Positions 7,401 to 64,000 of a stretch of 64,000 nucleotides of DNA are shown piece by piece. The position numbers and the translations under genes are program-made. Location: positions 41,497 to 105,496 of the forward strand of contig JAACMV010000021.1 in the NCBI GenBank assembly GCA_010909725.1. The letters run 5' to 3'. The DNA is from Picochlorum sp. 'celeri'. Lineage: Eukaryota; Chlorophyta; Trebouxiophyceae. The notes under the pieces are model-generated. The model did not search any database. It had not been told where the DNA came from and saw nothing but the letters and a program-made list of their open reading frames with translations. The number at the start of each line of letters is the position of its first letter. Position 1 is the first letter of the stretch.

Positions 7401-8944
7401 AGACGTGCCAAAGGCTTGGCGACGCTCCGAGCCATGCGACCTATGCTGGCGACGCCCTCTATCCCCCTGAAGAGCAAGCTGCTGGCCATCAAGGGACAAC
7501 TGATCCCTCAATTGGCATACGGAGGCGAACTGTTTGGCTCGAGCGGGCGCACCGCGATGCAACCGCTCCAACGAGTGCTCTCCATGGCTCTCAACGTGGC
7601 TGTCAGGGGCAAGGCCACTCATACGATAGCGTCCGCGACACTATCCACTGAGCTGGAACTCCCCACCCTTCCTGCCATCGCTGCAGGGAGAGCAGCCCGA
7701 GCCTGGAGGAAGTGGCCAGACCTTGGGACTTGGATTGGCACCTTGTTTAGCCTTCCAGCCAGGAGGGGCAAACACACGCTGGTCCAACGCACCAAGGCCT
7801 TCATGACGAGGTTACAGAATCGACATGGATTCTCGCCCCTCGACAAGACCCCCAAGCAACTCGCCAAACAGGTCCAATTCATCACATGGGAACGTCACCT
7901 CGCCGCCGACAGGAGCCACTCTTCAGGGTACAACGCATATATGGAAGCTAATTATTCCTCTACAAATAATTATCTTTCATATTCGACTGCGGAGGGGTAC
8001 TCTCGTGGCTTTCACTGGCTGGCACGGGCCCGCACAGGAGGGATCTGGAATGCTGCCCGAGGCTCTCGAGCTCGGCTGCTTCCTCCCTCCTATCGCTCCT
8101 GGTGCGCCAGCTGCGACAGCCACACGGAGGACTCTCTCGAACATCTCTTGCTTCACTGCCCGGCATACGCGGTGATTCGCGACCAAGTGCTGGGAGATTG
8201 GATCGCCAAGGCCATCACCGCTCATCAGGAAACTGGAGTGGACCCTTGGCAATGGTTGTTGGGGTCAGCCAGAGGAGAACATCCAGAGTTTGCTCCTACA
8301 GCATCCTCCGAGCATGTTACTCAAGCCCCTGTCCCCCTGTGCATCGCCACAGCCCATTTTTTGGGGATTAGTATGCCCACCCATATGGGAAAGCTGTGGG
8401 GATCAGAGGAAGTGGTGTCTTTGATGGAGGCACGGGACAGGGCGAGGGAGGAGGCAACCTCCCCTCACAACATCGGTCACCGAGAGTCAAGTGGTGCCCA
8501 TGGTCTTTCGTTGGAAGATCATGGTGGCTCTCAACCACAGGCCTCAGCTCTTTTGGAGAGTCATGCTGAGGCGCCCACTACCCCAAGAGCCGACGCCCCC
8601 TGGGTACGGCAGTTCTCACGGAGCACTTCCAGTGAGGTTTCTGAGACTCCTCTCAGAGACCCCACGCCGAGGCGCTCTGTGGAACACGTGGACTGTGGTA
8701 TATAAGGAGTGAGTTTTTAGTGGGTGCAACCCCCACATCACCTGGGCAGGTATCTGGGCACCTGTGCATGGTTGGCTTCATGCACATGTGGCAGAGCTCC
8801 ATCTGGTCAAGGTTCTCTTGATTCAGGAGCCCTGCTGGGAGGACCACCTGCATTTGAGGCAGCAGGCCAACTCCGTGTCAGTCGAGATTTTCTCACTTCT
8901 TTGTATGCTTACAGAACCAAAAAAAAAAAAAAAAAAAAAAAAAA
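4415..8944 (+). mobile_element. LINE copy 2, apparently with its full 5' end
   Basis: This is the longest copy, with about 200 bp of N-terminal coding sequence that copy 3 lacks. It starts after an A/T palindrome at 4416-4441. The first in-frame ATG is at 4443, the 3' UTR is 8706-8918 and the poly(A) is 8919-8944. It therefore shows the complete architecture: a very short 5' UTR, a single ORF of about 1,420 codons, a 3' UTR of about 210 bp and a poly(A) tail. Confidence 0.88.
4443..8705 (+). pseudogene. LINE polyprotein of copy 2, broken by several 1-base indels
   Basis: The ORF starts MAQPCETARN. Its N-terminal ~170 residues are Arg/Lys-rich and may bind RNA, followed by the APE endonuclease and reverse transcriptase as in copy 1. 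The frame shifts near 5381 (extra A in GCGGAAGCGACC), near 5797, near 5855, near 6200, near 6295, near 6381 and near 6452. From about 6470 to the stop at 8705 the frame is intact and nearly identical to copies 1 and 3. All breaks lie in the first 2 kb and are single-base indels. That fits either decay of a recent insertion or uncorrected sequencing error. As read it cannot make a full protein. Confidence 0.85.
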
Positions 8945-11900: not shown

Positions 11901-13234
11901 GTCAGGGGCAAGGCCACTCATACGATAGCGTCCTCGACACTATCCACTGAGCTGGAACTCCCCACCCTCCCTGCCATCGCTGCAGGGAGAGCAGCCCGAG
12001 CCTGGAGGAAGTGGCCAGACCTTGGGACTTGGATTGGCACCTTGTTTAGCCTTCCAGCCAGGAGGGGCAAACACACGCTGGTCCAACGCACCAAGGCCTT
12101 CATGACGAGGTTACAGAATCGACACCGATTCTCGACCCTCGACAAGACCCCCAAGCAACTCGCCAAACTGGTCCAATTCCTCACGTGGGAACGCCACCTC
12201 GCCGCCGACAGGAGCCACTCTTCAGGATACAACGCCTATATGGAAGCTAATTATTCCTCTACGAATAATTATCTTTCATATTCGACTGCGGAGGGGTACT
12301 CTCGTGGCTTTCACTGGCTGGCACGGGCCCGCACAGGAGGGATCTGGAATGCTGCCCGAGGCTCTCGAGCTCGGCTGCTTCCTCCCTCCTATCGCTCCTG
12401 GTGCGCCAGCTGCGAAAGCCACACGGAGGACTCTCTCGAACATCTCTTGCTTCACTGCCCGGCATACGCGGTGATTCGCGACCAAGTGCTGGGAGATTGG
12501 ATCGCCAAGGCCATCACCGCTCATCAGGAAACTGGAGTGGACCCTTGGCAATGGTTGTTGGGGTCAGCCAGAGGAGAACATCCAGAGTTTGCTCCTACAG
12601 CATCCTCCGAGCATGTTACTCAAGCCCCTGTCCCCCTGTGCATCGCCACAGCCCATTTTTTGGGGATTAGTATGCCCACCCATATGGGAAAGCTGTGGGG
12701 ATCAGAGGAAGTGGTGTCTTTGATGGAGGCACGGGACAGGGCGAGGGAGGAGGCAACCTCCCCTCACAACATCGGTCACCGAGAGTCAAGTGGTGCCCAT
12801 GGTCTTTCGTTGGAAGATCATGGTGGCTCTCAACCACAGGCCTCAGCTCTTTTGGAGAGTCATGCTGAGGCGCCCACTACCCCAAGAGCCGACGCCCCCT
12901 GGGTACGGCAGTTCTCACGGAGCACTTCCAGTGAGGTTTCTGAGACTCCTCTCAGAGACCCCACGCCGAGGCGCTCTGTGGAACACGTGGACTGTGGTAT
13001 ATAAGGAGTGAGTTTTTAGTGGGTGCAACCCCCACATCACCTGGGCAGGTATCTGGGCACCTGTGCATGGTTGGGTTCATGCACACGTGGCAGAGCTCCA
13101 CTTGGTCAAGGTTCTCTTGATTCAGGAGCCCTGCTGGGAGGACCACCTGCATTTGAGGCAGCAGACCAACTCCGTGTCAGTCGAGATTTTCTCACTTCTT
13201 TGTATGCTTACAGAACCAAAAAAAAAAAAAAAAA
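8945..13234 (+). mobile_element. LINE copy 3, 5'-truncated, inserted at the poly(A) of copy 2
   Basis: It begins at TGCGGCTACACTTCGTCACG right after the A-run of copy 2, equivalent to position 4641 of copy 2, so about 200 bp of the 5' end are missing. Its poly(A) is at 13219-13234. It differs from copies 1 and 2 at scattered bases and is a slightly older relative. Confidence 0.93.
8946..13004 (+). CDS. LINE endonuclease-reverse transcriptase (copy 3, lacks the first ~65 residues, no frameshift)
   Basis: An uninterrupted frame of about 1,350 codons holds the basic region, APE endonuclease (FNVLATWNI near 9289, GDFNHD near 9715) and reverse transcriptase with FADDT near 11427. In this copy LLFADDT reads PLFADDT. 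The C-terminal Cys-His cluster follows. No own ATG is near the truncated start. The same frame reads upstream through the poly(A) of copy 2 as a Lys run, joining the two elements into one long open frame from 8724. Endonuclease and RT motifs are complete, so only the N-terminal RNA-binding part is lost. Confidence 0.9.
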   Translation, partial: AATLRHVKQVRAARQRIDQRVRFDVWIEGAPEGLISQIAASRTAWKWHIRCHNNYRRRMKEQARRQGLEGTGAGHTRTRRVGAGFPWARQGRGGTGDVRSSRIEENNARQGSKPFNVLATWNITTATNKRGELNWCFKARRFGVVGLQEHQVKEDSFPLAFSHYNVIQRYKTGPGVRGVALVTHRSLPTTELREVYAHPNIIWAQVHQLMPVTCYIATIYVPGEHLRDDRRETLNKLDADIHRITAERPGTPIVIMGDFNHDLEAMSTLIARRGWPLDLLPVRGDATTFWRPYTQGSAIDHILVNEHARAQLLSARVLTTEASSDHWPLAVKCRYEGQRDIPPPPRKKLRLDHIGTAKDITEHNYWDDLLQTTTEDMEADMEHTDSDDTQAESFTGKFEDTLHRILDQQECFQTTCHREKPIRKLAHRTRTVLRKRNQARLEMYRNLNTDTMATYKALHKEARRLVRRDQTSSFHKFVHRAAASGPSSPIFWKFINILQGKQRRPQTLQPVKGPNNQLQLSNEAILHTTEQHYSTLAGDADTTPLAYWAERCPLPQRPTVLELNRDITWPEIQAALATSATGKAPGMDGITNEVYKLCKEDTPRLEPTTPMGRMLLEAVNSIFHGDIPEDMHSSLIISIPKPHKDATLLDNHRGISLIDCLLKLTTRVISDRLHTHLIEGPRGLRKEQAGFRRLQECPAQAATLYEIALRRRQVDQVTFAAFIDLRKAFDMVPHRCLLHVLSSRGINGACLNFISTLYSHAGFKCSAGTLTSTGTFPLHRGVKQGDTLSPVLFDLFIDSALDGIRGVTVPNLPDPHADEDPRIPGPLFADDTVILAESEAELQDSLNTFGDWCDRFGMEVGHAKCGVMALGVGDSTQLPRPTIGPFTLQRGTIPVVDKYTYLGIVVTPRLDVRDIILDRRAKGLATLRAMRPMLATPSIPLKSKLLAIKGQLIPQLAYGGELFGSSGRTAMQPLQRVLSMALNMAVRGKATHTIASSTLSTELELPTLPAIAAGRAARAWRKWPDLGTWIGTLFSLPARRGKHTLVQRTKAFMTRLQNRHRFSTLDKTPKQLAKLVQFLTWERHLAADRSHSSGYNAYMEANYSSTNNYLSYSTAEGYSRGFHWLARARTGGIWNAARGSRARLLPPSYRSWCASCESHTEDSLEHLLLHCPAYAVIRDQVLGDWIAKAITAHQETGVDPWQWLLGSARGEHPEFAPTASSEHVTQAPVPLCIATAHFLGISMPTHMGKLWGSEEVVSLMEARDRAREEATSPHNIGHRESSGAHGLSLEDHGGSQPQASALLESHAEAPTTPRADAPWVRQFSRSTSSEVSETPLRDPTPRRSVEHVDCGI

Positions 13235-47520: not shown

Positions 47521-47552
<32 letters not shown>

Positions 47553-50500
47553 GTTCTGTAAGCATACAAAGAAGTGAGAAATCTCGACTGACACGGAGTT
47601 GGCCTGCTGCCTCAAATGCAGGTGGTCCTCCCAGCAGGGCTCCTGAATCAAGAGAACCTCGACCATGTGGAGCTCTGCCACGTGTGCATGAAGCCAACCA
47701 TGCACAGGTGCCCAGATACCTGCCCAGGTGATGTGGGGGTTGCACCCACTAAAAACTCACTCCTTATATACCACAGTCCACGTGTTCCACAGAGCGCCTC
47801 GGCGTGGGGTCTCTGAGAGGAGTCTCAGAAACCTCACTGGAAGTGCGCCGTGAGAACTGCCGTACCCAGGGGGCGTCGGCTCTTGGGGTAGTGGGCGCCT
47901 CAGCATGACTCTCCAAAAGAGCTGAGGCCTGTGGTTGAGAGCCACCATGATCTTCCAACGAAAGACCATGGGCACCACTTGACTCTCGGTGACCTATGTT
48001 GTGAGGGGAGGTTGCCTCCTCCCTCGCCCTGTCCCGTGCCTCCATCAAAGACACCACTTCCTCTGATCCCCACAGCTTTCCCATATGGGTGGGCATACTA
48101 ATCCCCAAAAAATGGGCTGTGGCGATGCACAGGGGGACAGGGGCTTGAGTAACATGCTCGGAGGATGCTGTAGGAGCAAACTCTGGATGTTCTCCTCTGG
48201 CTGACCCCAACAACCATTGCCAAGGGTCCACTCCAGTTTCCTGATGAGCGGTGATGGCCTTGGCGATCCAATCTCCCAGCACTTGGTCGCGAATCACCGC
48301 GTATGCCGGGCAGTGAAGCAAGAGATGTTCGAGAGAGTCCTCCGTGTGGCTTTCGCAGCTGGCGCACCAGGTACGATAGGAGGGAGGAAGCAGCCGAGCT
48401 CGAGAGCCTCGGGCAGCATTCCAGATCCCCCCTGTGCGGGGCCCGTGCGAGCCAGTGGAAGCCGCGAGAGTACCCCTCCGCAGTCGAGTAGGAAAGATAA
48501 TTATTTGTAGAGGAATAATTCGCTTCCATATAGGCGTTGTATCCTGAAGAATGGCTCCTGTCGGCGGCGAGGTGGCGTTCCCACGTGAGGAATTGGACCA
48601 GTTTGGCGAGTTGCTTGGGGGTCTTGTCGAGGGGCGAGAATCCATGTCGATTCTGTAACCTCGTCATGAAGGCCTTGGTGCGTTGGACCAGCGTGTGTTT
48701 GCCCCTCCTGGCTGGGAGGCTAAACAAGGTGCCAATCCAAGTCCCAAGGTCTGGCCACTTCCTCCAGGCTCGGGCTGCTCTCCCTGCAGCGATGGCAGGG
48801 AGGGTGGGGAGTTCCAGCTCAGTGGATAGTGTCGAGGACGCTATCGTATGAGTGGCCTTGCCCCTGACAGCCATGTTGAGAGCCATGGAGAGCACTCGTT
48901 GGAGCGGTTGCATCGCCGTGCGCCCGCTCGAGCCAAACAGTTCGCCTCCGTAGGCCAGCTGAGGGATCAGTTGTCCCTTGATGGCCAGCAGCTTGCTCTT
49001 CAGGGGGATAGAGGGCGTCGCCAGCATGGGGCGCATGGCTCGGAGCGTCGCCAAGCCTTTGGCACGTCTGTCGAGGATGATGTCCCTCACGTCGAGGCGT
49101 GGGGTGACAACAATCCCGAGATACGTGTACTTGTCGACTACTGGAATGGTACCGCGTTGGATGGTGAAGGGGCCAATGGTGGGTCGAGGCAGCTGTGTAG
49201 AATCACCTACGCCCAGTGCCATGACGCCACACTTGGCGTGTCCCACCTCCATGCCGAAGCGGTCACACCAGTCTCCGAACGTGTTGAGCGAGTCCTGCAG
49301 CTCTGCTTCCGACTCGGCCAGGATGACTGTGTCGTCTGCGAAGAGCAGGCCAGGAATACGAGGGTCTTCATCAGCGTGCGGGTCTCGAAGATTCGGGACC
49401 GTCACGCCTCGGATCCCATCCAGTGCCGAGTCGATGAAGAGATCGAACAGGACTGGGCTCAACGTATCGCCTTGCTTGACGCCTCTATGCAATGGGAACG
49501 TACCTGTGGAAGTAAGAGTACCTGCAGAGCATTTGAAACCAGCGTGAGAATACAGCGTGGAGATGAAGTTCAAACACGCGCCGTTGATCCCCCGAGAACT
49601 AAGTACATGAAGAAGGCACCGATGGGGGACCATATCGAATGCCTTCCTCAGATCTATAAATGCAGCAAAGGTGACCTGGTCCACTTGGCGTCGGCGGAGG
49701 GCAATCTCGTAGAGCGTCGCAGCTTGAGCTGGGCATTCCTGTAGTCTCCTGAATCCAGCTTGTTCCTTTCTGAGTCCTCTGGGTCCTTCTATAAGATGTG
49801 TGTGCAGCCTGTCTGATATCACCCTGGTAGTGAGTTTGAGGAGGCAGTCGATGAGTGAGATGCCTCGGTGATTATCCAACAACGTAGCATCTTTGTGTGG
49901 CTTGGGGATGCTGATGATCAGGCTGCTGTGCATGTCTTCTGGGATGTCGCCATGAAAGATAGAGTTGACGGCTTCCAACAGCATTCTTCCCATTGGTGTT
50001 GTGGGTTCCAACCTGGGGGTGTCTTCTTTGCAGAGTTTGTACACCTCGTTTGTGATGCCATCCATTCCTGGTGCTTTGCCTGTTGCAGAGGTGGCCAGAG
50101 CTGCTTGTATCTCCGGCCACGTGATGTCTCTATTCAGTTCCAAAACAGTTGGTCGCTGGGGCAAGGGGCATCGCTCGGCCCAGGACGCAAGGGGGGTGGT
50201 ATCTGCGTCTCCTGCCAATGTGCTGTAATGCTGCTCCGTCGTGTGCAAAATGGCTTCGTTGCTCAGTTGCAGCTGGTTATTTGGTCCTTTCACGGGCTGC
50301 AGTGTCTGTGGGCGTCTCTGTTTGCCTTGTAGAATATTGATGAACTTCCAGAAGATGGGACTGGAAGGTCCTGATGCTGCAGCCCTGTGTACAAATTTGT
50401 GGAAACTGGATGTCTGGTCACGCCTGACCAATCGCCTCGCTTCCTGGTGTAATGCCTTGTATGTTGCCATCGTATCTGTGTTGAGGTTTCTGTACATCTC

Positions 50501-51264
50501 CAGTCGTGCCTGGTTTCGTTTTCGTAGCACTGTGCGCGTTCTGTGTGCGAGCTTTCTGATGGGCTTTTCTCGATGGCATGTGGTTTGGAAGCATTCTTGC
50601 TGGTCAAGAATCCTGTGCAATGTGTCTTTGAATTTTCCTGTAAGGCTTTCTGTTTGTGTGTCGTCTGAGTCTGTGTGTTCCATGTCAGCCTCCATGTCCT
50701 CCGTAGTCTGTAGCAAGTCGTCCCAATAGTTGTGCTCCGTAATGTCTTTGGCAGTCCCAATGTGATCCAGCCGCAGTTTCTTCCTTGGTGGCGGCGGGAT
50801 ATCGCGTTGTCCTTCGTATCTGCATTTCACAGCGAGTGGCCAGTGGTCTGAGGATGCCTCTGTGGTGAGTACCCTGGCTGAGAGCAGGTGAGCCCGGGCA
50901 TGTTCGTTCACCAGAATGTGGTCTATCGCGCTTCCTTGTGTGTACGGCCTCCAGAATGTCGTGGCATCTCCTCGCACTGGCAGCAAATCTAATGGCCATC
51001 CTCTCCGTGCTATAAGTGTGCTCATGGCCTCCAAGTCGTGATTGAAGTCCCCCATGATGACGATGGGAGTTCCCGGTCGCTCCGCTGTGATCCTGTGTAT
51101 GTCTGCATCCAGTTTGTTCAACGTCTCACGCCGATCGTCTCTCAGATGCTCCCCTGGTACATATATGGTGGCGATGTAGCAGGTGACTGGCATCAATTGG
51201 TGCACTTGGGCCCATATGATGTTGGGATGGGCATACACTTCTCTGAGCTCTGTCGTGGGCAAGC
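47521..51264 (-). mobile_element. LINE copy A, 5'-truncated, minus strand
   Basis: The poly(A) appears as 31 T at 47521-47551; the 3' UTR is next to it. The 5' end is at GCTTGCCCACGACAG (51264), equivalent to about position 309 of the window, so the first ~100 residues of the endonuclease are gone. It is preceded (5') by the poly(A) of copy B, so it is another head-to-tail insertion. Confidence 0.93.
47764..51264 (-). pseudogene. LINE polyprotein of copy A (N-terminus lost, one frameshift)
   Basis: Reading from 51264, the endonuclease lacks its first catalytic strand but keeps GDFNHD near 51050 and SDHWPL near 50850. The reverse transcriptase is complete (FADDT near 49330). An extra G in GCGGGGCCCGTG near 48440 shifts the frame just before the C-terminal Cys-His cluster, which continues in a second frame to the stop at 47764. 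The first frame instead runs on to 48098. Loss of the N-terminal endonuclease makes this copy unable to nick DNA. Confidence 0.87.
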
Positions 51265-54200
51265 TTTTTTTTTTTTTTTTTTTTGGTTCTGTAAGCATAC
51301 AAAGAAGTGAGAAAATCTCGACTGACACGGAGTTGGCCTGCTGCCTCAAATGCAGGTGGTCCTCCCAGCAGGGCTCCTGAATCAAGAGAACCTCGACCAT
51401 GTGGAGCTCTGCCACGTGTGCATGAAGCCAACCATGCACAGGTGCCCAGATACCTGCCCAGGTGATGTGGGGGTTGCACCCACTAAAAACTCACTCCTTA
51501 TATACCACAGTCCACGTGTTCCACAGGGCGCCTCGGCGTGGGGTCTCCGAGAGGAGTCTCAGAAACCTCACTGGAAGTGCGCCGTGAGAACTGCCGTACC
51601 CAGGGGGCGTCGGCTCTTGGGGTAGTGGGCGCCTCAGCATGACTCTCCAAAAGAGCTGAGGCCTGTGGTTGAGAGCCACCATGATCTTCCAACGAAAGAT
51701 CATGGGCACCACTTGACTCTCGGTGACCTATGTTGTGAGGGGAGGTTGCCTCCTCCCTCGCCCTGTCCCGTGCCTCCATCAAAGACACCACTTCCTCTGA
51801 TCCCCACAGCTTTCCCATATGGGTGGGCATACTAATCCCCAAAAAATGGGCTGTGGCGATGCACAGGGGGACAGGGGCTTGAGTAACATGCTCGGAGGAT
51901 GCTGTAGGAGCAAACTCTGGATGTTCTCCTCTGGCTGACCCCAACAACCATTGCCAAGGGTCCACTCCAGTTTCCTGATGAGCGGTGATGGCCTTGGCGA
52001 TCCAATCTCCCAGCACTTGGTCGCGAATCACCGCGTATGCCGGGCAGTGAAGCAAGAGATGTTCGAGAGAGTCCTCCGTGTGGCTTTCGCAGCTGGCGCA
52101 CCAGGAGCGATAGGAGGGAGGAAGCAGCCGAGCTCGAGAGCCTCGGGCAGCATTCCAGATCCCTCCTGTGCGGGCCCGTGCAAGCCAGTGAAAGCCACGA
52201 GAGTACCCCTCCGCAGTCGAATATGAAAGATAATTATTTGTAGATGAATAATTAGCTTCCACATAGGCGTTGTACCCTGAAGAGTGGCTCCTGTCGGTGG
52301 CGAGGTGGCGTTCCCACGTGAGGAATTGGACCTGTTTGGCGAGTTGCTTGGGGGTCTTGTCGAGGGGCGAGAATCCATGTCGATTCTGTAACCTCGTCAT
52401 GAAGGCCTTGGTGCGTTGGACCAGCGTGTGTTTGCCCCTCCTGGCTGGGAGGCTAAACAAGGTGCCAATCCAAGTCCCAAGGTCTGGCCACTTCCTCCAG
52501 GCTCGGGCTGCTCTCCCTGCAGCGATGGCAGGAAGGGTGGGGAGTTCCAGCTCAGTGGATAGTGTCGCGGACGCTATCGTATGAGTGGCCTTGCCCCTGA
52601 CAGCCATGTTGAGAGCCATGGAGAGCACTCGTTGGAGCGGTTGCATCGCGGTGCGCCCGCTCGAGCCAAACAGTTCGCCTCCGTATGCCAATTGAGGGAT
52701 CAGTTGTCCCTTGATGGCCAGCAGCTTGCTCTTCAGGGGGATAGAGGGCGTCGCCAGCATAGGTCGCATGGCTCGGAGCGTCGCCAAGCCTTTGGCACGT
52801 CTGTCGAGGATGATGTCCCTCACGTCGAGGCGTGGGGTGACAACAATCCCGAGATACGTGTACTTGTCGACTACTGGAATGGTACCGCGTTGGATGGTGA
52901 AGGGGCCAATGGTGGGTCGAGGCAGCTGTGTAGAATCACCTACGCCCAGTGCCATGACGCCACACTTGGCGTGTCCCACCTCCATGCCGAAGCGGTCACA
53001 CCAGTCTCCGAACGTGTTGAGCGAGTCCTGCAGCTCTGCTTCCGACTCGGCCAGGATGACTGTGTCGTCTGCGAAGAGCAGGCCAGGAATACGGGGGTCT
53101 TCATCGGCGTGCGGGTCGCGAAGATTCGGTACCGTCACGCCTCGGATCCCATCCAGTGCCGAGTCGATGAAGAGATCGAACAGGACTGGGCTCAACGTAT
53201 CGCCTTGCTTGACGCCTCTATGCAATGGGAACGTACCTGTGGAAGTAAGAGTACCTGCAGAGCATTTGAAACCAGCGTGAGAATACAGCGTGGAGATGAA
53301 GTTCAAACACGCGCCGTTGATCCCCCGAGAACTAAGTACATGAAGAAGGCACCGATGGGGGACCATATCGAATGCCTTCCTCAGATCTATAAATGCAGCA
53401 AAGGTGACCTGGTCCACTTGGCGTCGGCGGAGGGCAATCTCGTAGAGCGTCGCAGCTTGAGCTGGGCATTCCTGTAGTCTCCTGAATCCAGCTTGTTCCT
53501 TTCTGAGTCCTCTGGGTCCTTCTATAAGATGTGTGTGCAGCCTGTCTGATATCACCCTGGTAGTGAGTTTGAGGAGGCAGTCGATGAGTGAGATGCCTCG
53601 GTGATTATCCAACAGCGTAGCATCTTTGTGTGGCTTGGGGATGCTAATGATCAGGCTGCTGTGCATGTCTTCTGGGATGTCGCCATGAAAGATAGAGTTG
53701 ACGGCTTCCAGTAGCATTCTTCCCATTGGCGTTGTGGGTTCCAACCTAGGGGTGTCTTCTTTGCAGAGTTTGTACACCTCGTTTGTGATGCCATCCATTC
53801 CTGGTGCTTTGCCTGTTGCAGAGGTGGCGAGAGCTGCTTGTATCTCCGGCCACGTGATGTCTCTATTCAGTTCCAAAACAGTTGGTCGCTGGGGCAAGGG
53901 GCATCGCTCGGCCCAGGACGCAAGGGGGGTGGTATCTGCGTCTCCTGCCAATGTGCTGTAATGCTGCTCCGTCGTGTGCAAAATGGCTTCGTTGCTCAGT
54001 TGCAGCTGGTTATTTGGTCCTTTCACGGGCTGCAGTGTCTGTGGGCGTCTCTGTTTGCCTTGTAGAATATTGATGAACTTCCAGAAGATGGGACTGGAAG
54101 GTCCTGATGCTGCAGCCCTGTGTACAAATTTGTGGAAACTGGATGTCTGGTCACGCCTGACCAATCGCCTCGCTTCCTGGTGTAATGCCTTGTATGTTTG

Positions 54201-54686
54201 CCATCGTATCTGTGTTGAGGTTTCTGTACATCTCCAGTCGTGCCTGGTTTCGTTTTCGTAGCACTGTGCGCGTTCTGTGTGCGAGCTTTCTGATGGGCTT
54301 TTCTCGATGGCATGTGGTTTGGAAGCATTCTTGCTGGTCAAGAATCCTGTGCAATGTGTCTTTGAATTTTCCTGTAAGGCTTTCTGTTTGTGTGTCGTCT
54401 GAGTCTGTGTGTTCCATGTCAGCCTCCATGTCCTCCGTAGTCTGTAGCAAGTTGTCCCAATAGTTGTGCTCCGTAATGTCTTTGGCAGTCCCAATGTGAT
54501 CCAGCCGCAGTTTCTTCCTTGGTGGCGGCGGGATATCGCGTTGTCCTTCGTATCTACATTTCACAGCGAGTGGCCAGTGGTCTGAGGATGCTTCTGTGGT
54601 GAGTACCCTGGCTGATAGCAGTTGAGCCCGGGCATGTTCGTTCACCCAGAATGTGGTCTATAGCGCTTCCTTGTGTGTAGGCCTCA
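51265..54686 (-). mobile_element. LINE copy B, minus strand, cut by the assembly gap
   Basis: The poly(A) is 20 T at 51265-51284. The body runs to 54686, where the run of N begins. Coding-sequence variants distinctive of copy 1 (for example DNLLQ, YVEANYSS, GAHDLSLEDH, TPLGDPTPRRPVEH) are all present, so it is nearly identical to copy 1 but inverted. Confidence 0.93.
51498..54686 (-). pseudogene. LINE polyprotein of copy B (partial, two frameshifts)
   Basis: Intact from about 54190 to the stop at 51498, covering the reverse transcriptase (FADDT near 53070) and C-terminal Cys-His cluster. An extra T near 54197 (TATGTTTGCC) and an extra C near 54646 (CACCCAG) break the frame towards the 5' end. 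The endonuclease N-terminus lies in or beyond the gap. Confidence 0.86.
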
Positions 54687-54786
54687 NNNNNNNNNNNNNN
54701 NNNNNNNNNNNNNNNNNNNNNNNNNNNNNNNNNNNNNNNNNNNNNNNNNNNNNNNNNNNNNNNNNNNNNNNNNNNNNNNNNNNNNN
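54687..54786. other. Assembly gap (100 N)
   Basis: Exactly 100 unknown bases separate the LINE from the Fanzor/cpSRP43 repeat, so the 5' end of LINE copy B and the start of the first tandem unit are missing. The true distance is unknown. Confidence 0.99.
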
Positions 54787-54789
54787 TAG

Positions 54790-55081
54790 AAAATGGCGAT
54801 GGAGCCAAGGAGTACTTGGTGAAATTTCCCGACGAAGATGAACCTGTGTGGGTCCACGAGAAGTACATGTCGGAAGAGTCGTAGCCGATTACCAAGATAA
54901 CCTGGAGTACGCGAAAGCTGAGAAGATTCTCGATGTCCGAAATAAGGGAGACTCTCGTGCGTATTTGGTGAGATGGATGGATGGATCAGAGGACACCTGG
55001 GAGCCAGAGGAACATGTCTCCCGAGATCTCATCTACATGTTTGAGAACAACGGTGCTCTGCCTCCAGGTGTCAAAATCTAA
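54790..55081 (+). pseudogene. CAO: cpSRP43 last-exon fragment, copy 1 (chromodomains 2-3)
   Basis: Begins at a splice-acceptor-like TAG and encodes KEYLVKFPDEDEPVWVHEKY, then DYQDNLEYAKAEKILDVRN and the chromodomain core AYLVRWMDGSEDTWEPEEHV. This is the arrangement at the C-terminus of cpSRP43, where tandem chromodomains contact cpSRP54 and Alb3. Relative to copy 2 a G is missing in GAAGAGTCG near 54879, and TATCC reads TAGCC near 54884, so a stop appears in the middle. The ankyrin repeats and first chromodomain are absent from the window. Stop at 55081, 33 bp before the Fanzor element. Confidence 0.72.
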
Positions 55082-55114
55082 TCATAATAATAAATAATAA
55101 GTAGCCATAAATTA

Positions 55115-55152
55115 CAGTAAAATTTTTTAATTTCGTTTGTCGGACGGAATGT
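55115..55152. repeat. Terminal inverted repeat, 3'-of-gene side, Fanzor element copy 1
   Basis: Starts CAGTAAAA after a flanking TA and pairs with 57652-57689. Together with the 120 bp up to the Fanzor stop codon, this is where a Fanzor omega-RNA would be expected to lie. Confidence 0.8.
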
Positions 55153-55235
55153 TCCAAACTTGGAAGTTCCATCGTTCTCTCTGCTGTATCTTGAAGCATA
55201 GCGTCTGCAAAAAGCAGCCGACTTACATGCCGAAT

Positions 55236-57596
55236 TCATTGCCGTGTTGATGTCCTTTGCCTTTTCCTCGTCCTCTTGAAAGCCTTGATTCGAGATCCAT
55301 TGTGACACTTTTCCAAAAACAAGTCTTTGATATTGATACTGGCATTGACATCACGGTCCCAAACATTTCGAATGCATTCATTGTTGTGACAACGTTTCAT
55401 CCTGAATTGTTTGTTGTACTGTTCCATTGCCTCATGACAGCAAGAACAGAGTTTGGACGTATTGAATTCATTAACCAACACAACTGTGGCACATTCCGAT
55501 ACCTTGTTGAACAGTTTTGTGCTCATGATAGGAGCAGTGCCCCTCATTGTGCCGTTATTATCACCATCACCATACGCCACGATGACTCTCTTCTGTGCCT
55601 CTTTGTTTCTTGTTCCACAGATTCGAGCAACCACATCCTCCATGGCCGACTTTTCCTTGCAAAATTTCCTCATCTTCTGTTTCTGATACCATTTTTTGTC
55701 ATCGAAGAAGGCTTGTTGCAGTTGGGGCCACATAGAAACTTGGAATCTGTAACTCTCAAAAATTTTCTCAAGATCTACTGTCTTGTATGTTGGCACAGAC
55801 ACCCATGCAGGACAGTATTCAGACATCCTTTTCTTTTTTGGCTGTATACTGTTTCTGACTAGATAAGAAGATCCATTCTCCTGACCCCAGAGAATCACTT
55901 TTATATCTGTCTTCCACCTCTGTATGACGACCATTTTCTGCATTCCACTTTGCATGGATCTTTTGCTTTTCCGAATCATGAAAAACCCACGTGGCCGCTG
56001 ACTTTTTACCTGGGTCCAAACCGACAATGATACAATCTGTGTGATATATACCATGGTCATCTTTGCGTATGCCAGCCAACCTTTTGATCCTTTCTGTGAT
56101 GACTGTCTTGTCTTTGTTTTTAGCCTTTCGTTTCTGTAGAACGTCCTTTTGTGACTTTAATGTATGCAACAATGGCTTCAGTAGAACATAATGTATGGTG
56201 GAAATGTCACCAAGGAGAATACGCAAAGGGTCATATCTGATCTTTTTTGCAATAATGTTGGTTGCAAACATCCCACAATAGGTGGCCCACAACTTTGCTT
56301 TGACGTAATTCATATCATCCTGCAGATGGATTATCTTGCATTCCCAGATCCGACTCACAGTGTCTATAACACAGCAGAAACAGAGACGCAATCAGTGCAT
56401 ATAGAGCATCCGAATCTGAGTTTCGTTTGGTCCTTCAATGTGCTTTTTTTTTCAATACTCGCTTCATGTTGAATATCGATTTCCAATAATAATACTTATT
56501 TGTATAGTCATCCAGTGCTGGACAGTCATCTACTATCTTTCTGATATATGGATATTTCTTTGCGAGTTGCTCAACCATAGTCTCACTGCTGTGCTGGAGA
56601 TATGGATTGCTTGGTTTCCAGGCCATCTGTGGACACAGACAAAATGTCCATTTCTGTCTTCCAAGTATACTCTTCTTCCCTTCAAACTCTCCGTTTCTGA
56701 ACCTTCTGTTGCAGTGATTCCCGAATGGCTCCAAGTGACCCCAAATCCAGAAGCAAATTCTGGATTTCTCAGAAAGAGTTGTCGTCTTTGGCACCAAACG
56801 AGCAAATGATATCCAAGGCTCTCTGTGCTTCATCCCATACTGACACATTCAGACGCAAATTCTGTCAATGATGGTCTACGTTCAACAATATCACTGACTT
56901 TCGTCCTCTCCCAGAATGCCTGTGTGATTGCAGAAAAATACTTGTCCAAACTTCTTCTTTGACAAATTTTTGATTTGGTCAAAGTCCGTGTCGTCTCGAA
57001 ATAGCAAAATATCTCAGATACCGTAATGCATATATACATTAAGATTGGTTTCCAAATGCGTGGTATGCATAACAGACGACTGCTGGGCCATCTGCCTCCA
57101 TTGTTTTGCCTCTCCAAGAAGAGAGACAACCCTGTGGCCAATCTGTTTTTAACCCAGTCTCCTCACAATATTCCTTGCACAAGTCGCGCAAGTTGGTATC
57201 AACATCCTTTCTCTCCTTCTTTTGTTGCAAATGATTAGCAAGGTGTCTGTAGATTTTGTTGTAGAGTTCGTAGAGAGTTTTCATCTTTGTGGTCTCTAAA
57301 TGCCCCCACCGTTCCTCAATAACAATAGATGCATGACATGATGCACATGAATCTGTAGTCTACTCAGATAGAATACACATTCTTCAATTTCGCGTTGAAC
57401 CACTTTGAACTTACAAAAAGGCTGCAAAGTGCACTTGACGACTGTCTTATTGAAAAAAACGGTCTTTATCCTTCTTTATAGCCACATCCAATCGAGTAAA
57501 CTTCTTTTTCTTCACCTTTTTCGATGGTGTGGCGGACACCTTTCTCTTTTTTTTCATTTTGAAATGACACGGTTGGCGATGGCGGCTCGACTTCAT
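55236..57596 (-). pseudogene. Fanzor (eukaryotic TnpB-like RNA-guided nuclease), copy 1, frameshifted
   Basis: The ATG at 57596 opens MKSSRHRQPCHF, then KMKKKRKVS and KKVKKKKF, a strong nuclear-localisation-type patch. A helical middle follows. The nuclease core is RuvC-I IIVGLDPGKKSAATWVF near 56035-55985, an Arg/Lys-rich stretch, VNEFNTSKLCSCCHEAME near 55480-55425 (zinc finger, first Cys pair), KRCHNNEC near 55396 (second pair), and RuvC-III WDRDVNASINI near 55360. It ends KRTRKRQR. The segment 55236-56060 (274 codons) is open without a break; upstream the frame shifts at least five times by single bases. Fanzors cut DNA guided by an omega-RNA transcribed from the 3' end of their element. 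The C-terminal stop at 55236 is preferred over a read-on frame to 55078. Confidence 0.85.
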
Positions 57597-57651
57597 ACCA
57601 ATCCAAGGTTCTAGAAGATTCGGATTGACCAGAGTCAAATGGACTAGATGT

Positions 57652-57689
57652 TACATTCCTTAATTAAACGAAATTTAAAATTTTTACGG
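57652..57689. repeat. Terminal inverted repeat, 5'-of-gene side, Fanzor element copy 1
   Basis: Ends TTTTTACGG before TA (57690-57691). The reverse complement matches the repeat at 55115-55152 over the outer ~25 bp with three or four mismatches. Confidence 0.8.
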
Positions 57690-57691
57690 TA

Positions 57692-58210
57692 TTTGCGATG
57701 CGTAGATTAAGGATTACAGCTGTAACCATAAAAAAATCGGGATTTCTTTAAATCGGGGCGTCCGGCACGAGACCGATCGAGCGGAAACGAGCCTCCCGAT
57801 CGAATAACACGCTCTATGACTGTGGGATTTTGCATTTCTCGCCGGCGGAGGTGCCGGGTGCGGGGGGCGGTGTCCGCCGATGTGCGCGATTTCCGGAAAT
57901 GGGCCGAAAATCGCGCCCTCGCCAGGCCCCGAAATTTCCTCGCTCGGCCCCCGACGAAAAGATATTTCAAAAAAACTGGGCTGGGGCTACGGTCCGGGCG
58001 GCAACGGGCGTTCCTGCTGGGCGGCCCAGCGCCGCAAAGGCGGGTTGCCGACACCTCCGAAACCGATCTTCTCCATCTGTCGCGGCCCTCGGTGGGCCGG
58101 CCGATACTCTCGATCGACCCACTCCCCAGAGTGCCCCCAACTTATTACGGAAACAGCAGTTGTGATGGACCCCCTCGGATCTCCCACGGGTCCATCCTAG
58201 AGATCTAGAG
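57692..58210. repeat. GC-rich, highly structured repeat segment (unit 1)
   Basis: Sharply GC-richer than its surroundings, and repeated at 63195-63708 with one-base differences. It contains perfect hairpins: GCTGGGC-G-GCCCAGC (58016-58030), GGCCC-TCGGT-GGGCC (58084-58098) and ATGGACCC...GGGTCCAT (58165-58172 with 58188-58195). Several frames are open over it because few stops occur in such sequence; none resembles a protein. It lies upstream of the Fanzor gene, outside the inverted repeat. Confidence 0.75.
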
Positions 58211-58600
58211 CATCTCTTATCATCTGAACGTATCCATGAAGATCACGATATATTATTCTACTTAAATCTATAATCAGGTCTTAATTAGATATATTAAGTA
58301 GGAGATCTTCCTTCCTACTTACAGCAGTAAAGCAAAGAAGATGAAACAAGATTTAATGAACAAGACCCTCTCAGAATCTCTGAGAACATCAGATCAATAT
58401 TTCATGGACATTCAACAAATATTTAAGATCATCAGAGAACATGTGATCGACATCTGGGAGCATTTGATGAAGCTCTAAGAACATCCAGGATCATCTGAAA
58501 ACACCTGACAAAACTCTAAGAACATCAGAGAGCACCTAAGAGCATTTCATGAACCTCTAAAGAGATGAGAGAAGATTCGATAATTGCTCATGCTTAAAGT
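58211..58600. repeat. Degenerate short-period repeats (AGAACATC / TCTAAGA words)
   Basis: Words such as GAGAACATCAGA, TCTAAGAACATC and AGAGCATTT recur irregularly every 25-40 bp. The first part is also present at 63709-64000. No ORF of interest. Confidence 0.5.
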
Positions 58601-59798
58601 GATCAGTTTACTCCTCAAAAAGCAAATGGTTACTGACATGGCACTGATTCTCATGAGGTGCATGAAAGGGTGCTGTCCTGTCAACACCCAACTGCCCTGC
58701 TCTGCATTCAGAGCATATCCTCCGTCCGCCCGCGACCAATATATGTCCCGATATTTTACTCATCGACCTCCAAGACCAGAATCAGGCAGCCCGGATCCTT
58801 TGAGCCCGGCACGTATGATCAAATTCGGGGGAATTGCATTAGACCACAAAGTTATACATGTATTCCTCCAGAACAGATGTCTTTTTTGACTGGCCCAACT
58901 GTTTCAAAAACAAATATTTTCATGGTTTTAGATGAAAAAGTCGGTTCATGAGTGCATTTAGCATGCAGAGAATGAATCAACACCGTCCAAAAGAGTGGCC
59001 AAATCTGAATTATTCAGCAGGGACCATCAGATGAAGGTTTTCCGTCTCAACGGTAGAGCATCAAGAATCTACCTGTGCCCTTTCTCACGGGATGCAACTT
59101 TCTAGCATATTGATACCATCAATATTGCTTCCGTTGGGACTCATTTCCATGGCTGAGTTTATTGAGTGTGGAATCTGATGGGGAGAAGGAAACTGAGACC
59201 TGCTAACAATTGTGGATCTGGGTCTAATTTTTTTGTACCCACCAAGGATTGATAGCCAAGCGAGTTTTCCAGGTGAGATAGTCATTGTGACCCCATTCAT
59301 AGCATCCTTGCTTCGATCCTATATGAGATACAACAAAAGGATGGAGAGAATCACGAAGATCTGCCGAAACAAAAGGAAGGTATGGGTTGGAAGGACATAC
59401 ATCCATACAGTGGGAAATAGAAGGCAAGAAGATTGTAATCAATCACACAGCGACCAAAGCGCCAAGCGATTCGCCTCTAAGAAACAATAGAACATTATCT
59501 AGAAGCGAAGGATACCGGATTGATGCACACCAAACATTGCAAGGAAAGGTATGACTGGAAGTGAGCAACTCTCAGGTACCCAAAAGGATGTATCAGGGAT
59601 ACTGCGACCAAACGCTGATATACGAAGAAGATAACACCGATCAAATGACTGAGGAATCATATATAGTATGATGAAAGGAATTAAAGGCGCTTAAGAGCAA
59701 GAGAATAGTGATGAATGCTCCACAGGACAGCTGATACAAGCCTCCTGCCCAACACACAGCAAACAAATTGCATTGTTAATTGCCTTGGGGACGTTGAA
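58601..59798. other. Spacer between the tandem units, no supported gene
   Basis: No convincing coding region. 58640-58880 is a diverged relative of 62810-63040 (shared words GACATGGCA, GTCAACAC, ACCAA-ATATGTCC). The right end, up to TTGAATAG at 59801, behaves as an intron before the cpSRP43 exon. Upstream cpSRP43 exons were looked for and not found. Confidence 0.5.
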
Positions 59799-59801
59799 TA
59801 G

Positions 59802-60109
59802 AAAATGGCGATGGAGCCAAGGAGTACTTGGTGAAATTTCCCGATGAAGATGAACCTGTGTGGGTCCACGAGAAGTACATGTCGGAAGAGGTCGTATCCG
59901 ATTACCAAGATAACCTGGAGTACGCGAAAGCTGAGAAGATTCTCGATGTCCGAAATAAGGGAGACTCTCGTGCGTATTTGGTGAGATGGATGGATGGATC
60001 AGAGGACACCTGGGAGCCAGAGGAACATGTCTCCCAAGATCTCATCTACATGTTTGAGAACAACGGTGCTCTGCCTCCAGGTGTCAAAAATCTAATCACA
60101 ATATCATAA
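59802..60109 (+). pseudogene. CAO: cpSRP43 last-exon fragment, copy 2 (chromodomains 2-3, frame intact)
   Basis: Follows the acceptor TTGAATAG. The frame is open throughout: ENGDGAKEYLVKFPDEDEPV, SEEVVSDYQDNLEYAKAEK, then AYLVRWMDGSEDTWEPEEHV and a C-terminus near LIYMFENNGALPPGV. The match to plant cpSRP43 covers the end of chromodomain 2 and all of chromodomain 3; aromatic-cage residues (Tyr, Trp, Trp) are kept. cpSRP43 with cpSRP54 carries light-harvesting proteins to Alb3 in the thylakoid. No ankyrin exons are found in the 1.3 kb upstream, so it is either the 3' end of a gene with a long intron or a duplicated fragment. One extra A near the stop (AAAAATC) lengthens the C-terminus relative to copy 1. 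Confidence 0.75.
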
Positions 60110-60171
60110 TCTAATCATAATAAATAATAAATCTAATCATAATATTAATCATAATAAGTAGCCATAAATTA

Positions 60172-62738
60172 CAGTAAAATTTTTTAATTTCGTTTGTCGG
60201 ACGGAATGTTCCAACTTGGAAGTTCCATCGTTCTCTCTGCTGTATCTTGAAGCATAGCGTCTGCAAAAAGCAGCCGACTTACATGCCGAATTCATTGCCG
60301 TGTTGATGTCCTTTGCCTTTTCCTCGTCCTCTTGAAAGCCTTGATTCGAGATCCATTGTGACACTTTTCCAAAAACAAGTCTTTGATATTGATACTGGCA
60401 TTGACATCACGGTCCCAAACATTTCGAATGCATTCATTGTTGTGACAAACGTTTCATCCTGAATTGTTTGTTGTACTGTTCCATTGCCTCATGACAGCAA
60501 GAACAGAGTTTGGACGTATTGAATTCATTAACCAACACAACTGTGGCACATTCCGATACCTTGTTGAACAGTTTTGTGCTCATGATAGGAGCAGTGCCCC
60601 TCATTGTGCCGTTATTATCACCATCACCATACGCCACGATGACTCTCTTCTGTGCCTCTTTGTTTCTTGTTCCACAGATTCGAGCAACCACATCCTCCAT
60701 GGCCGACTTTTCCTTGCAAAATTTCCTCATCTTCTGTTTCTGATACCATTTTTTGTCATCGAAGAAGGCTTGTTGCAGTTGGGGCCACATAGAAACTTGG
60801 AATCTGTAACTCTCAAAAATTTCTCAAGATCTACTGTCTTGTATGTTGGCACAGACACCCATGCAGGACAGTATTCAGACATCCTTTTCTTTATTTTGGC
60901 TGTATACTGTTTCTGACTAGATAAGAAGATCCATTCTCCTGACCCCAGAGAATCACTTTTATATCTGTCTTCCACCTCTGTATGACGACCATTTTCTGCA
61001 TTCCACTTTGCATGGATCTTTTGCTTTTCCGAATCATGAAAAACCCACGTGGCCGCTGACTTTTTACCTGGGTCCAAACCGACAATGATACAATCTGTGT
61101 GATATATACCATGGTCATCTTTGCGTATGCCAGCCAACCTTTTGATCCTTTCTGTGATGACTGTCTTGTCTTTGTTTTTAGCCTTTCGTTTCTGTAGAAC
61201 GTCCTTTTGTGACTTTAATGTATGCAACAATGGCTTCAGTAGAACATAATGTATGGTGGAAATGTCACCAAGGAGAATACGCAAAGGGTCATATCTGATC
61301 TTTTTTGCAATAATGTTGGTTGCAAACATCCCACTATAGGTGGCCCACAACTTTGCTTTGACGTAATTCATATCATCCTGCAGATGGATTATCTTGCATT
61401 CCAGATCCGACTTCACAGTGTCTATAACAGCAGAAACAGAGACGCCATCAGTGCATATAGAGCATCCGAATCTGAGTTTCGTTTGGTCCTTCATGTGCTT
61501 TTTTTTCAATACTCGCTTCATGTTGAATATCGATTTCCAATAATAATACTTATTTGTATAGTCATCCAGTGCTGGACAGTCATCTACTATCTTTCTGATA
61601 TATGGATATTTCTTTGCGAGTTGCTCAACCATAGTCTTCACTGCTGTGCTGGAGATATGGATATGCTTTGGTTTCCAGGCCATCTGTGGACACAGACAAA
61701 ATGTCCATTTCTGTCTTCCAAGTATACTCTTCTTCCCTTCAAACTCTCCGTTTCTGAACCTCTGTTGCAGTGATTCCACGAATGGCTCCAAGTGACCCAA
61801 AATGAAGAAGCAAATTCTGGATTTCTCAGAAAGAGTTGTCGTCTTTGGCACCAACGAGCAAATGATATCCAAGGCTCTCTGTGCTTCATCCCATACTGAC
61901 ACATCAGACGCAAATTCTGTCAATGATGGTCTACGTTCAACAATATCACTGACTTTCGTCCTCTCCCAGAATGCCTGTGTGATTGCAGAAAATACTTGTC
62001 CAAACTTCTTCTTTGACAAATTTTTGATTTGGTCAAAGTCCGTGTCGTCTCGAAATAGCAAATATCTCAGATACCGTAATGCATATACATTAAGATTGGT
62101 TTCCAAATGCGTGGTATGCATAACAGGATGACTGCTGGGCCATCTGCTCCATTGTTTTGCCTCTCCAAGAAGAGAGACAACCCTGTGGCCAATCTGTTTT
62201 TAAACCCAGTCTCCTCACAATATTCCTTGCACAAGTCGCGCAAGTTGGTATCAACATCCTTTCTCTCCTTCTTTTGTTGCAAATGATTAGCAAGGTGTCT
62301 GTAGATTTTGTTGTAGAGTTCGTAGAGAGTTTCATCTTTGTGGTCTCTAAATGCCCCACCGTTCCTCAATAACAATAGATGCATGACATGATGCACATGA
62401 ATCTGTAGTCTACTCAGATAGAATACACATTCTTCAATTTCGCGTTGAACCACTTTGAACTTACAAAAAGGCTGCAAGTGCACTTGACGACTGTCTTATT
62501 GAAAAAACGGTCTTTATCCTTCTTTATAGCCACATCCAATCGAGTAAACTTCTTTTTCTTCACCTTTTTCGATGGTGTGGCGGACACCTTTCTCTTTTTT
62601 TTCATTTTGAAATGACACGGTTGGCGATGGCGGCTCGACTTCATACCAATCCAAGGTTCTAGAAGATTCGGATTGACCAGAGGTCAAATGGACTAGATGT
62701 TACATTCCTTAATTAAACGAAATTTAAAATTTTTACGG
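60172..62738 (-). mobile_element. Fanzor-carrying terminal-inverted-repeat element, copy 2
   Basis: 2,567 bp, same inverted repeats and flanking TA (60170-60171 and 62739-62740) as copy 1. The left flank is the same cpSRP43 3' sequence; the right flank differs from copy 1 from the first base beyond TA. Confidence 0.85.
60292..62644 (-). pseudogene. Fanzor nuclease, copy 2, better preserved in the middle
   Basis: The ATG at 62644 (MKSSRHRQPC) opens the same Lys/Arg nuclear-localisation-like patch. One frame is open from 62121 to 60727 (464 codons): the helical recognition region, a CSIC motif near 61460, and RuvC-I IIVGLDPGKKSAATWV near 61097-61050. Frame breaks occur near 62480, near 62100, near 60822 and near 60446 (extra A in GACAAACG, within the zinc finger). 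These sites differ from those in copy 1, so every domain is intact in at least one copy. The canonical RuvC-II Glu position reads VAYGDGDNNG, without Glu, while Glu is present in VNEFNTSKLC, as expected for Fanzors. About 780 residues if unbroken. Confidence 0.86.
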
Positions 62739-62740
62739 TA

Positions 62741-63193
62741 TCACATAGACCATATATTTGATCCATCATAATGATATAGTTTTCTGTAACTGCCTTGGGA
62801 CTAGGGACATGGCATTGCCTTCAATATCGGTGCACACTCGAACTTCTACAGACCTGGCTACAGGTCTCTCTTGGTCAACACATCTGCCAGCTGGCATTTA
62901 GAGCACCTCTTCCGTCGGCAACGACCAACATATGTCCTCAAACTGCCCTGTATCATGTTCAAGTCCACAAGCAAACACTCGGTATGTTTGGAACCATCTG
63001 TGTATGTCCAAATTTGAAGTATTCGCATCAAACCATACGTTCAAACACATGAGCTGCACCATCCCATCTCGCATGAGGCTGGTCGGTCCAGAGACGCCCC
63101 CGAACGAATCCTCAAATCTATGTAGGAAATTTGAAATCAAGACACACATCCCGATGAAAGGCAGGTAATCAAAGACAGCATCGCGGGAATGGT
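62741..63193. other. Segment present only in unit 2
   Basis: About 450 bp between the right inverted repeat and the GC-rich segment, missing from unit 1, where the two are joined directly at 57691. No ORF, terminal repeats or poly(A). The middle resembles 58640-58880. Confidence 0.75.
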
Positions 63194-63194
63194 T

Positions 63195-63708
63195 GCGATG
63201 CGTAGATTAAGGATTACAGCTGTAACCATAAAAAAATCGGGATTTTCTTTAAATCGGGGCGTCCGGCACGAGACCGATCGAGCGGAAACGAGCCTCCCGA
63301 TCGAATAACACGCTCTATGACTGTGGGATTTTGCATTTCTCGCCGGCGGAGGTGCCGGGTGCGGGGGGCGGTGTCCGCCGATGTGCGCGATTTCCGGAAA
63401 TGGGCCGAAAATCGCGCCCTCGCCAGGCCCCGAAATTTCCTCGCTCGGCCCCCGACGAAAAGATATTTCAAAAAAACTGGGCTGGGCTACGGTCCGGGCG
63501 GCAACGGGCGTTCCTGCTGGGCGGCCCAGCGCCGCAAAGGCGGGTTGCCGACACCTCCGAAACCGATCTTCTCCATCTGTCGCGGCCCTCGGTGGGCCGG
63601 CCGATACTCTCGATCGACCCACTCCCCAGAGTGCCCCCAACTTATTACGGAAACAGCAGTTGTGATGGACCCCCTCGGATCTCCCACGGGTCCATCCTAG
63701 AGATCTAG
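63195..63708. repeat. GC-rich, highly structured repeat segment (unit 2)
   Basis: Second copy of 57692-58210, starting at TGCGATGCGTAGATTAAGG. Differs by single-base changes in homopolymers (GGGCTGGGCT against GGGCTGGGGCT). Same hairpins conserved. Confidence 0.75.
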
Positions 63709-64000
63709 AGCATCTCTTATCATCTGAACGTATCCATGAAGATCACGATATATTATTCTACTTAAATCTATAATCAGGTCTTAATTAGATATATTAAGTA
63801 GGAGATCTTCCTTCCTACTTACAGCAGTAAAGCAAAGAAGATGAAACAAGATTTAATGAACAAGACCCTCTCAGAATCTCTGAGAACATCAGATCAATAT
63901 TTCATGGACATTCAACAAATATTTAAGATCATCAGAGAACATGTGATCGACATCTGGGAGCATTTGATGAAGCTCTAAGAACATCCAGGATCATCTGAAA
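63709..64000. repeat. Degenerate short-period repeats (unit 2, runs out of the window)
   Basis: Copy of 58209-58500, continuing to the last base, so unit 2 extends beyond the window. Confidence 0.6.

Follow-up and report, generated by a model that had tools for sequence, protein, structure and literature searches.

The window analysed here, 64,000 nucleotides (nt) of contig C21 (G000:C21:41497-105496) from a genome of 27.4 Mb in 30 contigs, contains two copies of a 2.57-kb transposable element with the layout TA-CAGTAAAATTTTTTAATTTCGTTT ... AAACGAAATTTAAAATTTTTACGG-TA, i.e. with terminal inverted repeats (TIRs) flanked by TA dinucleotides and enclosing a gene for a predicted Fanzor1-type nuclease (Table 1). 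An earlier note on this DNA had described two tandem elements with defined ends, each with a single Fanzor gene, had taken them for a mariner-like element depending on a transposase elsewhere in the genome and had seen in them a candidate for an undescribed system of the obligate mobile element-guided activity (OMEGA) type. Both elements, with their ends and flanking TA, are present as it described.

Of the 20 near-full copies found in the genome, 13 have an intact gene, which encodes 783 residues. Both reading frames of the window are split into pieces, so that one gene per copy does not hold here; copy 2 differs from an intact copy by seven indels, each of 1 nt and each beside the same base, for which reason these may be consensus errors. 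A profile search of the genome with PF07282 (TnpB zinc ribbon) yielded 26 matches, 25 of them above the cut-off, and PF07282 was the only Pfam match of the Fanzor protein (1.1e-8). PF26935, annotated for several homologs in the protein set, was absent from the Pfam scans run here, and NCBIfam gave no useful match for three proteins. Fanzor1 has been defined by D-X(125,275)-[TS][TS]-X-X-C4 zinc finger-X(5,50)-RD (Bao and Jurka 2013, PMC3627910), and this spacing is found in our protein (X=185), in a relative on contig C20 described below and in 11 of 12 close homologs (45-98% identity), all of which also share GLDPG, the zinc-finger/RD motif and, by eye, E-x6-C; the twelfth homolog (557 residues) is without that region. 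The Fanzor fingerprint of DPG in RuvC-I together with a glutamate six residues ahead of the zinc finger (PMC10711439) is represented by D524 in GLDPG and by E707-x6-C714, the DPG-to-glutamate distance of 180 lying outside the 120-160 of the search expression used there. GLDPG, WDRDVNA and a cysteine motif are present as claimed before, the second cysteine pair being C-x4-C (CHNNEC) and not C-x5-C. A profile of the 12 homologs, which added no more than two among the best 8000 candidates scored, matched Guillardia theta Fanzor1 (GtFz1, 9cer) in PDB weakly (E 0.0017, profile positions 656-761 only), the next-best profile match among the 15 matches listed having E 0.086; SpuFz1 of Spizellomyces punctatus was not among the matches of this search, and the single Fanzor protein alone gave no GtFz1 match in PDB. 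The PF07282 matches above the cut-off, the Fanzor1 motifs and the weak GtFz1 match bear out the TnpB/Fanzor identity proposed before, and the gene is a predicted Fanzor1-type nuclease. Further, strongly diverged Fanzor-like genes are present in the genome (C14:386488, C10:1080231, C19:34530/C11:1142503, C20:45180-48233/C5:47520, C16:1071868, C4:78640), several of them with open frames near 1000 residues.

A DNA search of the genome gave 23 matches, i.e. 20 near-full copies (at least 2501 of 2571 nt covered, 98-100% identity), one fragment and two diverged relatives. Grouped by their flanks, the near-full copies fall into 9 sites, and the C22 fragment marks a tenth. TA lies outside every readable element end at the boundaries seen in the two window copies (the 5' ends of the C11, C15b and C27c copies were not readable in the loci examined), and the TIR pattern with up to 3 mismatches had 44 genome matches compared to 2 for a reversed control, in agreement with the matching inverted repeats, the element boundaries and the mariner-like TA target of the earlier description. 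TIRs with TA on both sides are the features by which Tc1/mariner-pogo elements are recognised. As judged from its sequence, the element is a TIR transposon of the Tc1/mariner-pogo type that targets TA, is non-autonomous and has Fanzor1 as its only gene; it belongs to a known kind. Between sites the copies are separated by 1-17 substitutions (38-46 where the C15b/C27c pair is involved; the C11 and C21a rows were set aside), from which we conclude that the element has spread recently. Empty sites on C2 carry a single TA, and the C22 copy at that flank has a precise junction on the side of the candidate target-adjacent motif (TAM) and is cut short on the other; both fit a TA duplication on insertion without proving it, because the C22 copy is truncated. 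At an empty site on C15 the 5' side is rearranged. The outermost TIR bases at the Fanzor 5' end vary by site (CCG, ACG, TCG, CTCC; L018, L022, L011, L051), the other TIR being constant. At six of the 9 examined sites (L010, L012, L044, L018, L020, L023) a frame of at least 300 residues has its stop codon no more than ~90 nt away, and at four of these six the host gene and the element are tail to tail, so that guides would run antisense to the host gene at its 3' end. Viral contigs were scanned as well, with 39 pattern matches and zero confirmed relatives.

On contig C20 a relative of ~6 kb carries a Fanzor gene (50% identical), and a gene for an 893-residue DDE_1 protein (PF03184, 5.7e-13; nothing found in PDB at an E of 1 or below). 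Its right end is of the type seen in the 2.57-kb element, with a similar TIR, and its left TIR is decayed. By eye, the two elements resemble each other over ~110 nt from the gene-5' end inward, so that the 2.57-kb element looks like a transposase-less form of the C20-type element. The dependence on a transposase elsewhere is thereby plausible, in that a Fanzor-plus-DDE_1 relative with a similar right end exists; its left end is decayed, however, and cross-mobilisation would be deduced from the resemblance. The transposase allele on C5 is in three pieces, and the C20/C5 pair shows, from the left end onward in the compared part, indels only and 0 substitutions. The 5.3-kb interrupted copies on C15 and C27 were considered as a transposase source and rejected, the extra 2.75 kb on C15 being a repeat unit found next to copy 1 as well. 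A decayed relative of the C20 transposase with stops (best piece 62% identical) is located at C3:884780-886460. C2 and C22 also contain a 0.53-kb element (L048:4215-4741, L049:4353-4879) which has similar TIRs (CAGGAAAAATTTTAAATTTCGTTA), is flanked by TA and is adjoined by a 949-residue frame without Pfam match.

The non-coding stretch between the Fanzor stop codon and the element end is a candidate scaffold of an omega-RNA, the guide of which would derive from the flank past the TA, i.e. below position 55113. Its fold has a z of -2.1 in an intact copy (8/200 shuffles as good) and of -2.9 in the C20 relative (1/200 shuffles as good), and short motifs are common to both stretches by eye. An A precedes the TA at 10 of 10 sites, the background being 0.36-0.38, and T follows the TA, the mirror position, at 1 of 9 sites; the preference for A is confined to one side, as expected of a TAM, and is compatible with a candidate Fanzor TAM.

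Contigs can be paired by common element flanks (C15/C27, C8/C17, C2/C22, C4/C30, C13/C29) or by other common matches (C5/C20, C11/C19, C1/C21), with similar lengths within C15/C27, C2/C22, C11/C19 and C1/C21, the pairs for which both lengths were seen; this pairing suggests that the assembly seems to contain both homologs of a diploid. We compared the alleles of eight pairs with sites filled on both homologs. C1/C21, which are probably duplicates, and C27a, which lacks a filled partner, were not included, nor were the C22 fragment and C20/C5. The comparison used flanks of 1.5 kb, 8-kb loci for the first C15/C27 site and one flank only for C27c/C15b. Summed over the eight pairs, 6/20436 positions differ in the element and 171/24823 in the flanks. 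The values for element and flanks are 4/2563 and 35/2949 for C29/C13 (some flank substitutions lying in AT repeats), 0/2566 and 2/3003 for C17/C8, 1/2566 and 19/5430 for C15/C27, 0/2566 and 12/2998 for C22/C2, 0/2565 and 8/3000 for C4/C30, 1/2566 and 0/2996 for the second C8/C17 site, 0/2501 and 86/2947 for C19/C11, and 0/2543 and 9/1500 (one flank) for the second C27/C15 site, C27c/C15b, on the other side of which 1.5 kb of a repeat unit show 0 differences. In C22/C2 (L016/L019), 10 of 11 left-flank substitutions fall within 185 bp of the guide side of the element.

The C11 copy of the C19/C11 pair is ragged, having lost the element's first 65 nt as well as nt 1-16 on the guide side and having a 2-nt filler. 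The differences between the flanks resume at -18 and +69 (+17/+18 with the filler aligned), with 11 substitutions within 820 nt of the 3' flank, and the C11 element is identical to that of C19 (0/2497), C27a differing by 1 and the other 17 copies by at least 8. These alleles strongly indicate that the C11 copy was pasted in recently from C19 by break repair, after the chromosomes had diverged. Changes between alleles on the guide side are located at 16/17 (the C11 junction), at nt 21-23 (a 3-nt deletion in C4/C30) and from nt 20 (C29/C13), the latter two being read by eye from alignments. Cleavage by SpuFz1 has been reported after nt 16/17 and 20/21 (PMC10432273), and MmeFz2 is described as cutting one strand after nt 9-14.

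We lean with moderate confidence towards a reading in which the element is a non-autonomous TIR transposon whose Fanzor1 acts as a homing enzyme, restoring or spreading the element at its own site. A DDE_1 transposase of the C20 type would move the element, and the 3' end of the Fanzor transcript would cross the element end into the flank, giving a guide that matches that one site, is read past the CAGTAAAA end and has NATA plus flank as its empty target. The nuclease would then cut the site where it is empty (ATA plus guide), either on the homolog or once the element has been excised, and break repair would copy the element in. We infer that the Fanzor itself made the break at C11. That the Fanzor of this diploid eukaryote represents a natural homing drive, comprising a flank-guided cut of the empty homologous site near ATA, copying from homolog to homolog and scars at the cut position, is a more tentative proposal. 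Alternatively, the Fanzor may be a passenger, the transposase having excised the C11 element and the gap having been repaired imperfectly from C19. Imperfect gap repair after transposase excision is known for P elements, the breaks on C11 fall at the element ends and a transposase gene is present; neither the 16-nt loss on the guide side nor the C4/C30 deletion at guide nt 21-23 is predicted by such a process, however, and the one-sided ATA would be left unexplained, though the transposase itself could prefer ATA. We regard this explanation as unlikely, and we give similarly little credence to an account by ordinary gene conversion or loss of heterozygosity, in which the insertions would be old and the end deletions on C11 unrelated. 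Long identical tracts without Fanzor do occur (the C2/C22 control), and since the 3' flank of C19/C11 has 11 indels over 1447 aligned nt, a chance indel near the junction is conceivable, but the C19/C11 differences resume within 18 bp and 69 bp, with the ragged ends as the tract limits. A C11 copy partly built by the assembly from C19 reads appears highly improbable: other parts of the assembly look redundant or misjoined, whereas the C11 junctions are unlike those of C19 in their 65-nt loss, 16-nt loss and 2-nt filler.

Several observations weigh against homing. The haplotypes are mosaics with patchy loss of heterozygosity, and identical tracts are common. In the Fanzor-free C2/C22 control 129 substitutions in the first ~1.6 kb are followed by 0 in ~7.3 kb, and in the C19/C11 3' flank 45 of 56 substitutions lie more than 1 kb away. 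Owing to this mosaic structure the Fisher values for the eight pairs are not independent tests, and pairs differing on one side only (C4/C30 and, nearly, C22/C2) are weak, as is C27c/C15b with its one flank compared; both C8/C17 sites show no contrast between element and flanks. The A before the TA could reflect a preference of the transposase, and the C20 relative has T at this position. The guide-side change of C29/C13 sits in an AT repeat, the ragged C22 fragment, the flank of which is found empty in three identical C2 repeats, joins its flank at guide nt 8/9 and not at 16-21, and the C15 site, which has AATA and departs from the guide at nt 9 only, is still empty. The AlphaFold model of the Fanzor protein is poor (mean pLDDT, the predicted local distance difference test, 53.5). 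The case for homing comes mainly from C19/C11, and the other seven pairs do not decide.

The two copies in the window are most likely a single insertion site in the 3' flank of one gene, also seen on C29/C13, which the assembly displays several times, so that the tandem arrangement of the earlier note was probably produced by the assembly. Together with 373 nt of its left flank (59799-62741), copy 2 aligns to contig C29 without a mismatch and with 9 gap openings. For copy 1 and the following DNA (54787-59189), the BLAST match to the end of contig C1 shows 2 mismatches and 27 gap openings over 4414, MAFFT giving 9 or 14 substitutions within the element. The two blocks have the same first base (54787 / 59799), and this is where contig C1 stops; this common start, the N gap and the near-exact matches are the reasons for reading the pair as one site. 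Copy 2 interrupts a repeat unit without target duplication, the unit being whole in C1 and C15 (GTTGAA joined to TCACAT; L051, L040). Movement of copy 2 within a larger element capturing the gene end was considered and rejected in favour of an assembly duplication, because there is no target duplication and there are 0 mismatches to C29. The gene adjoining the element contains chromo and ankyrin domains in a domain scan; we take it to be cpSRP43-like, which suggests a photosynthetic eukaryote as host.

The repeat unit of ~2.55 kb (TTGCGATGC...GCATCGCGGGAATG), presumably Helitron-like, forms head-to-tail arrays (26 pattern matches) and sits in the C15 Fanzor copy without a clear duplication, the C27 copy being alike in the part read. 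A repeat of the long interspersed nuclear element (LINE) type is present in the window at 51265-54685, 620-4039, 5513-8938, 9815-13234 and 47532-50951; it encodes a reverse transcriptase frame of 998 residues (RVT_1, 8.2e-30) and has at least 51 matches in the genome, several close to contig ends. In the homolog C1 the LINE array lies at the start and the Fanzor block at the opposite end, suggesting that C21 past the N gap runs opposite to C1; C21 may therefore be misjoined at 54687-54786 or be heterozygous for an inversion.

Table 1. Features of the window around the two Fanzor element copies (positions are those of the window).
Feature	Position	Strand	Remarks
Copy 1, Fanzor element, TIR to TIR	55115..57689	-	2575 bp; TA at 55113-55114 and 57690-57691
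Copy 2, Fanzor element	60172..62738	-	2567 bp; TA at 60170-60171 and 62739-62740
TIR at Fanzor-gene 3' end, CAGTAAAATTTTTTAATTTCGTTT	55115..55138	+	identical across all 20 near-full copies
TIR at Fanzor-gene 5' end, AAACGAAATTTAAAATTTTTACGG	57666..57689	+	ends read at element loci
Candidate omega-RNA scaffold, non-coding, Fanzor stop codon to element end	55115..55235	-	putative, from folding and motifs shared by eye
3' part of copy 1 Fanzor frame (RuvC-I GLDPG, zinc ribbon, RuvC-III)	55236..56391	-	two overlapping frames, broken; PF07282 match at G000:C21:96825-96983
Upstream pieces of copy 1 Fanzor frame	56435..57141	-	frame broken
Pieces of copy 2 Fanzor frame	60434..62483	-	frame broken
100-N gap	54687..54786	.	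left edge of repeated block
End of chromodomain-ankyrin (cpSRP43-like) gene and 3' flank	54787..55114	+	longer gene beside same insertion on C29/C13
Repeated block, gene end and copy 2, inside repeat unit	59799..62741	.	probable C29 assembly duplicate, from sequence match to C29
Repeat unit of ~2.55 kb, TTGCGATGC...GCATCGCGGGAATG	57693-59798, 62742-63192, 63193-64000	.	palindrome near one end

Mariner elements with Fanzor1, with or without a transposase, with Mariner TIRs and TA duplications have been described (Bao and Jurka 2013, PMC3627910), and since both the Fanzor1-only and the Fanzor1 plus transposase form are known from there, the view of the element as an undescribed OMEGA-type system is not supported. 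Compared by description, PGv-1, PUl-1 and PUl-4 from that work are alike in having Fanzor1 with or without a transposase, Mariner-type TIRs and TA duplications; they differ in coming from other hosts, and in our case the relative has PF03184 and both homologs lend themselves to an allele comparison. Spu-1, the element of SpuFz1 in Spizellomyces punctatus (PMC10432273), likewise has a single Fanzor1 gene between inverted repeats and a non-coding 3' stretch, with CA before its 5' repeat and CATA as its TAM, whereas here only the A before the TA is constant and the TAM is a candidate. An uncharacterised Fanzor repeat of Auxenochlorella, compared by description only, is the most abundant repeat in that phased diploid green alga, and the available text of the source (PMC12633428) contains no analysis of termini, TAM or alleles. 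The biological roles of Fanzors were stated to be unknown by Saito et al. 2023 (PMC10432273), and we found no description of natural Fanzor homing among the listed titles and abstract openings of open-licence papers on Fanzor, alone or together with homing, gene drive or transposase, excision and retention. What looks new here is the likely copying of a Fanzor element between homologs at C19/C11. A homing drive, if true, would give Fanzors a biological role, and with both homologs apparently assembled, young and nearly identical copies, 13 intact genes, readable candidate guides, a candidate TAM and a likely recent copy-in event, homing would become testable in one organism. The closest parallel in mechanism would be the bacterial IS200/605 TnpB, for which retention and plasmid gene drive by a guide from the flank, a cut at the empty site and copying by recombination, all of which we infer here, were shown in a preprint (PMC11870625).

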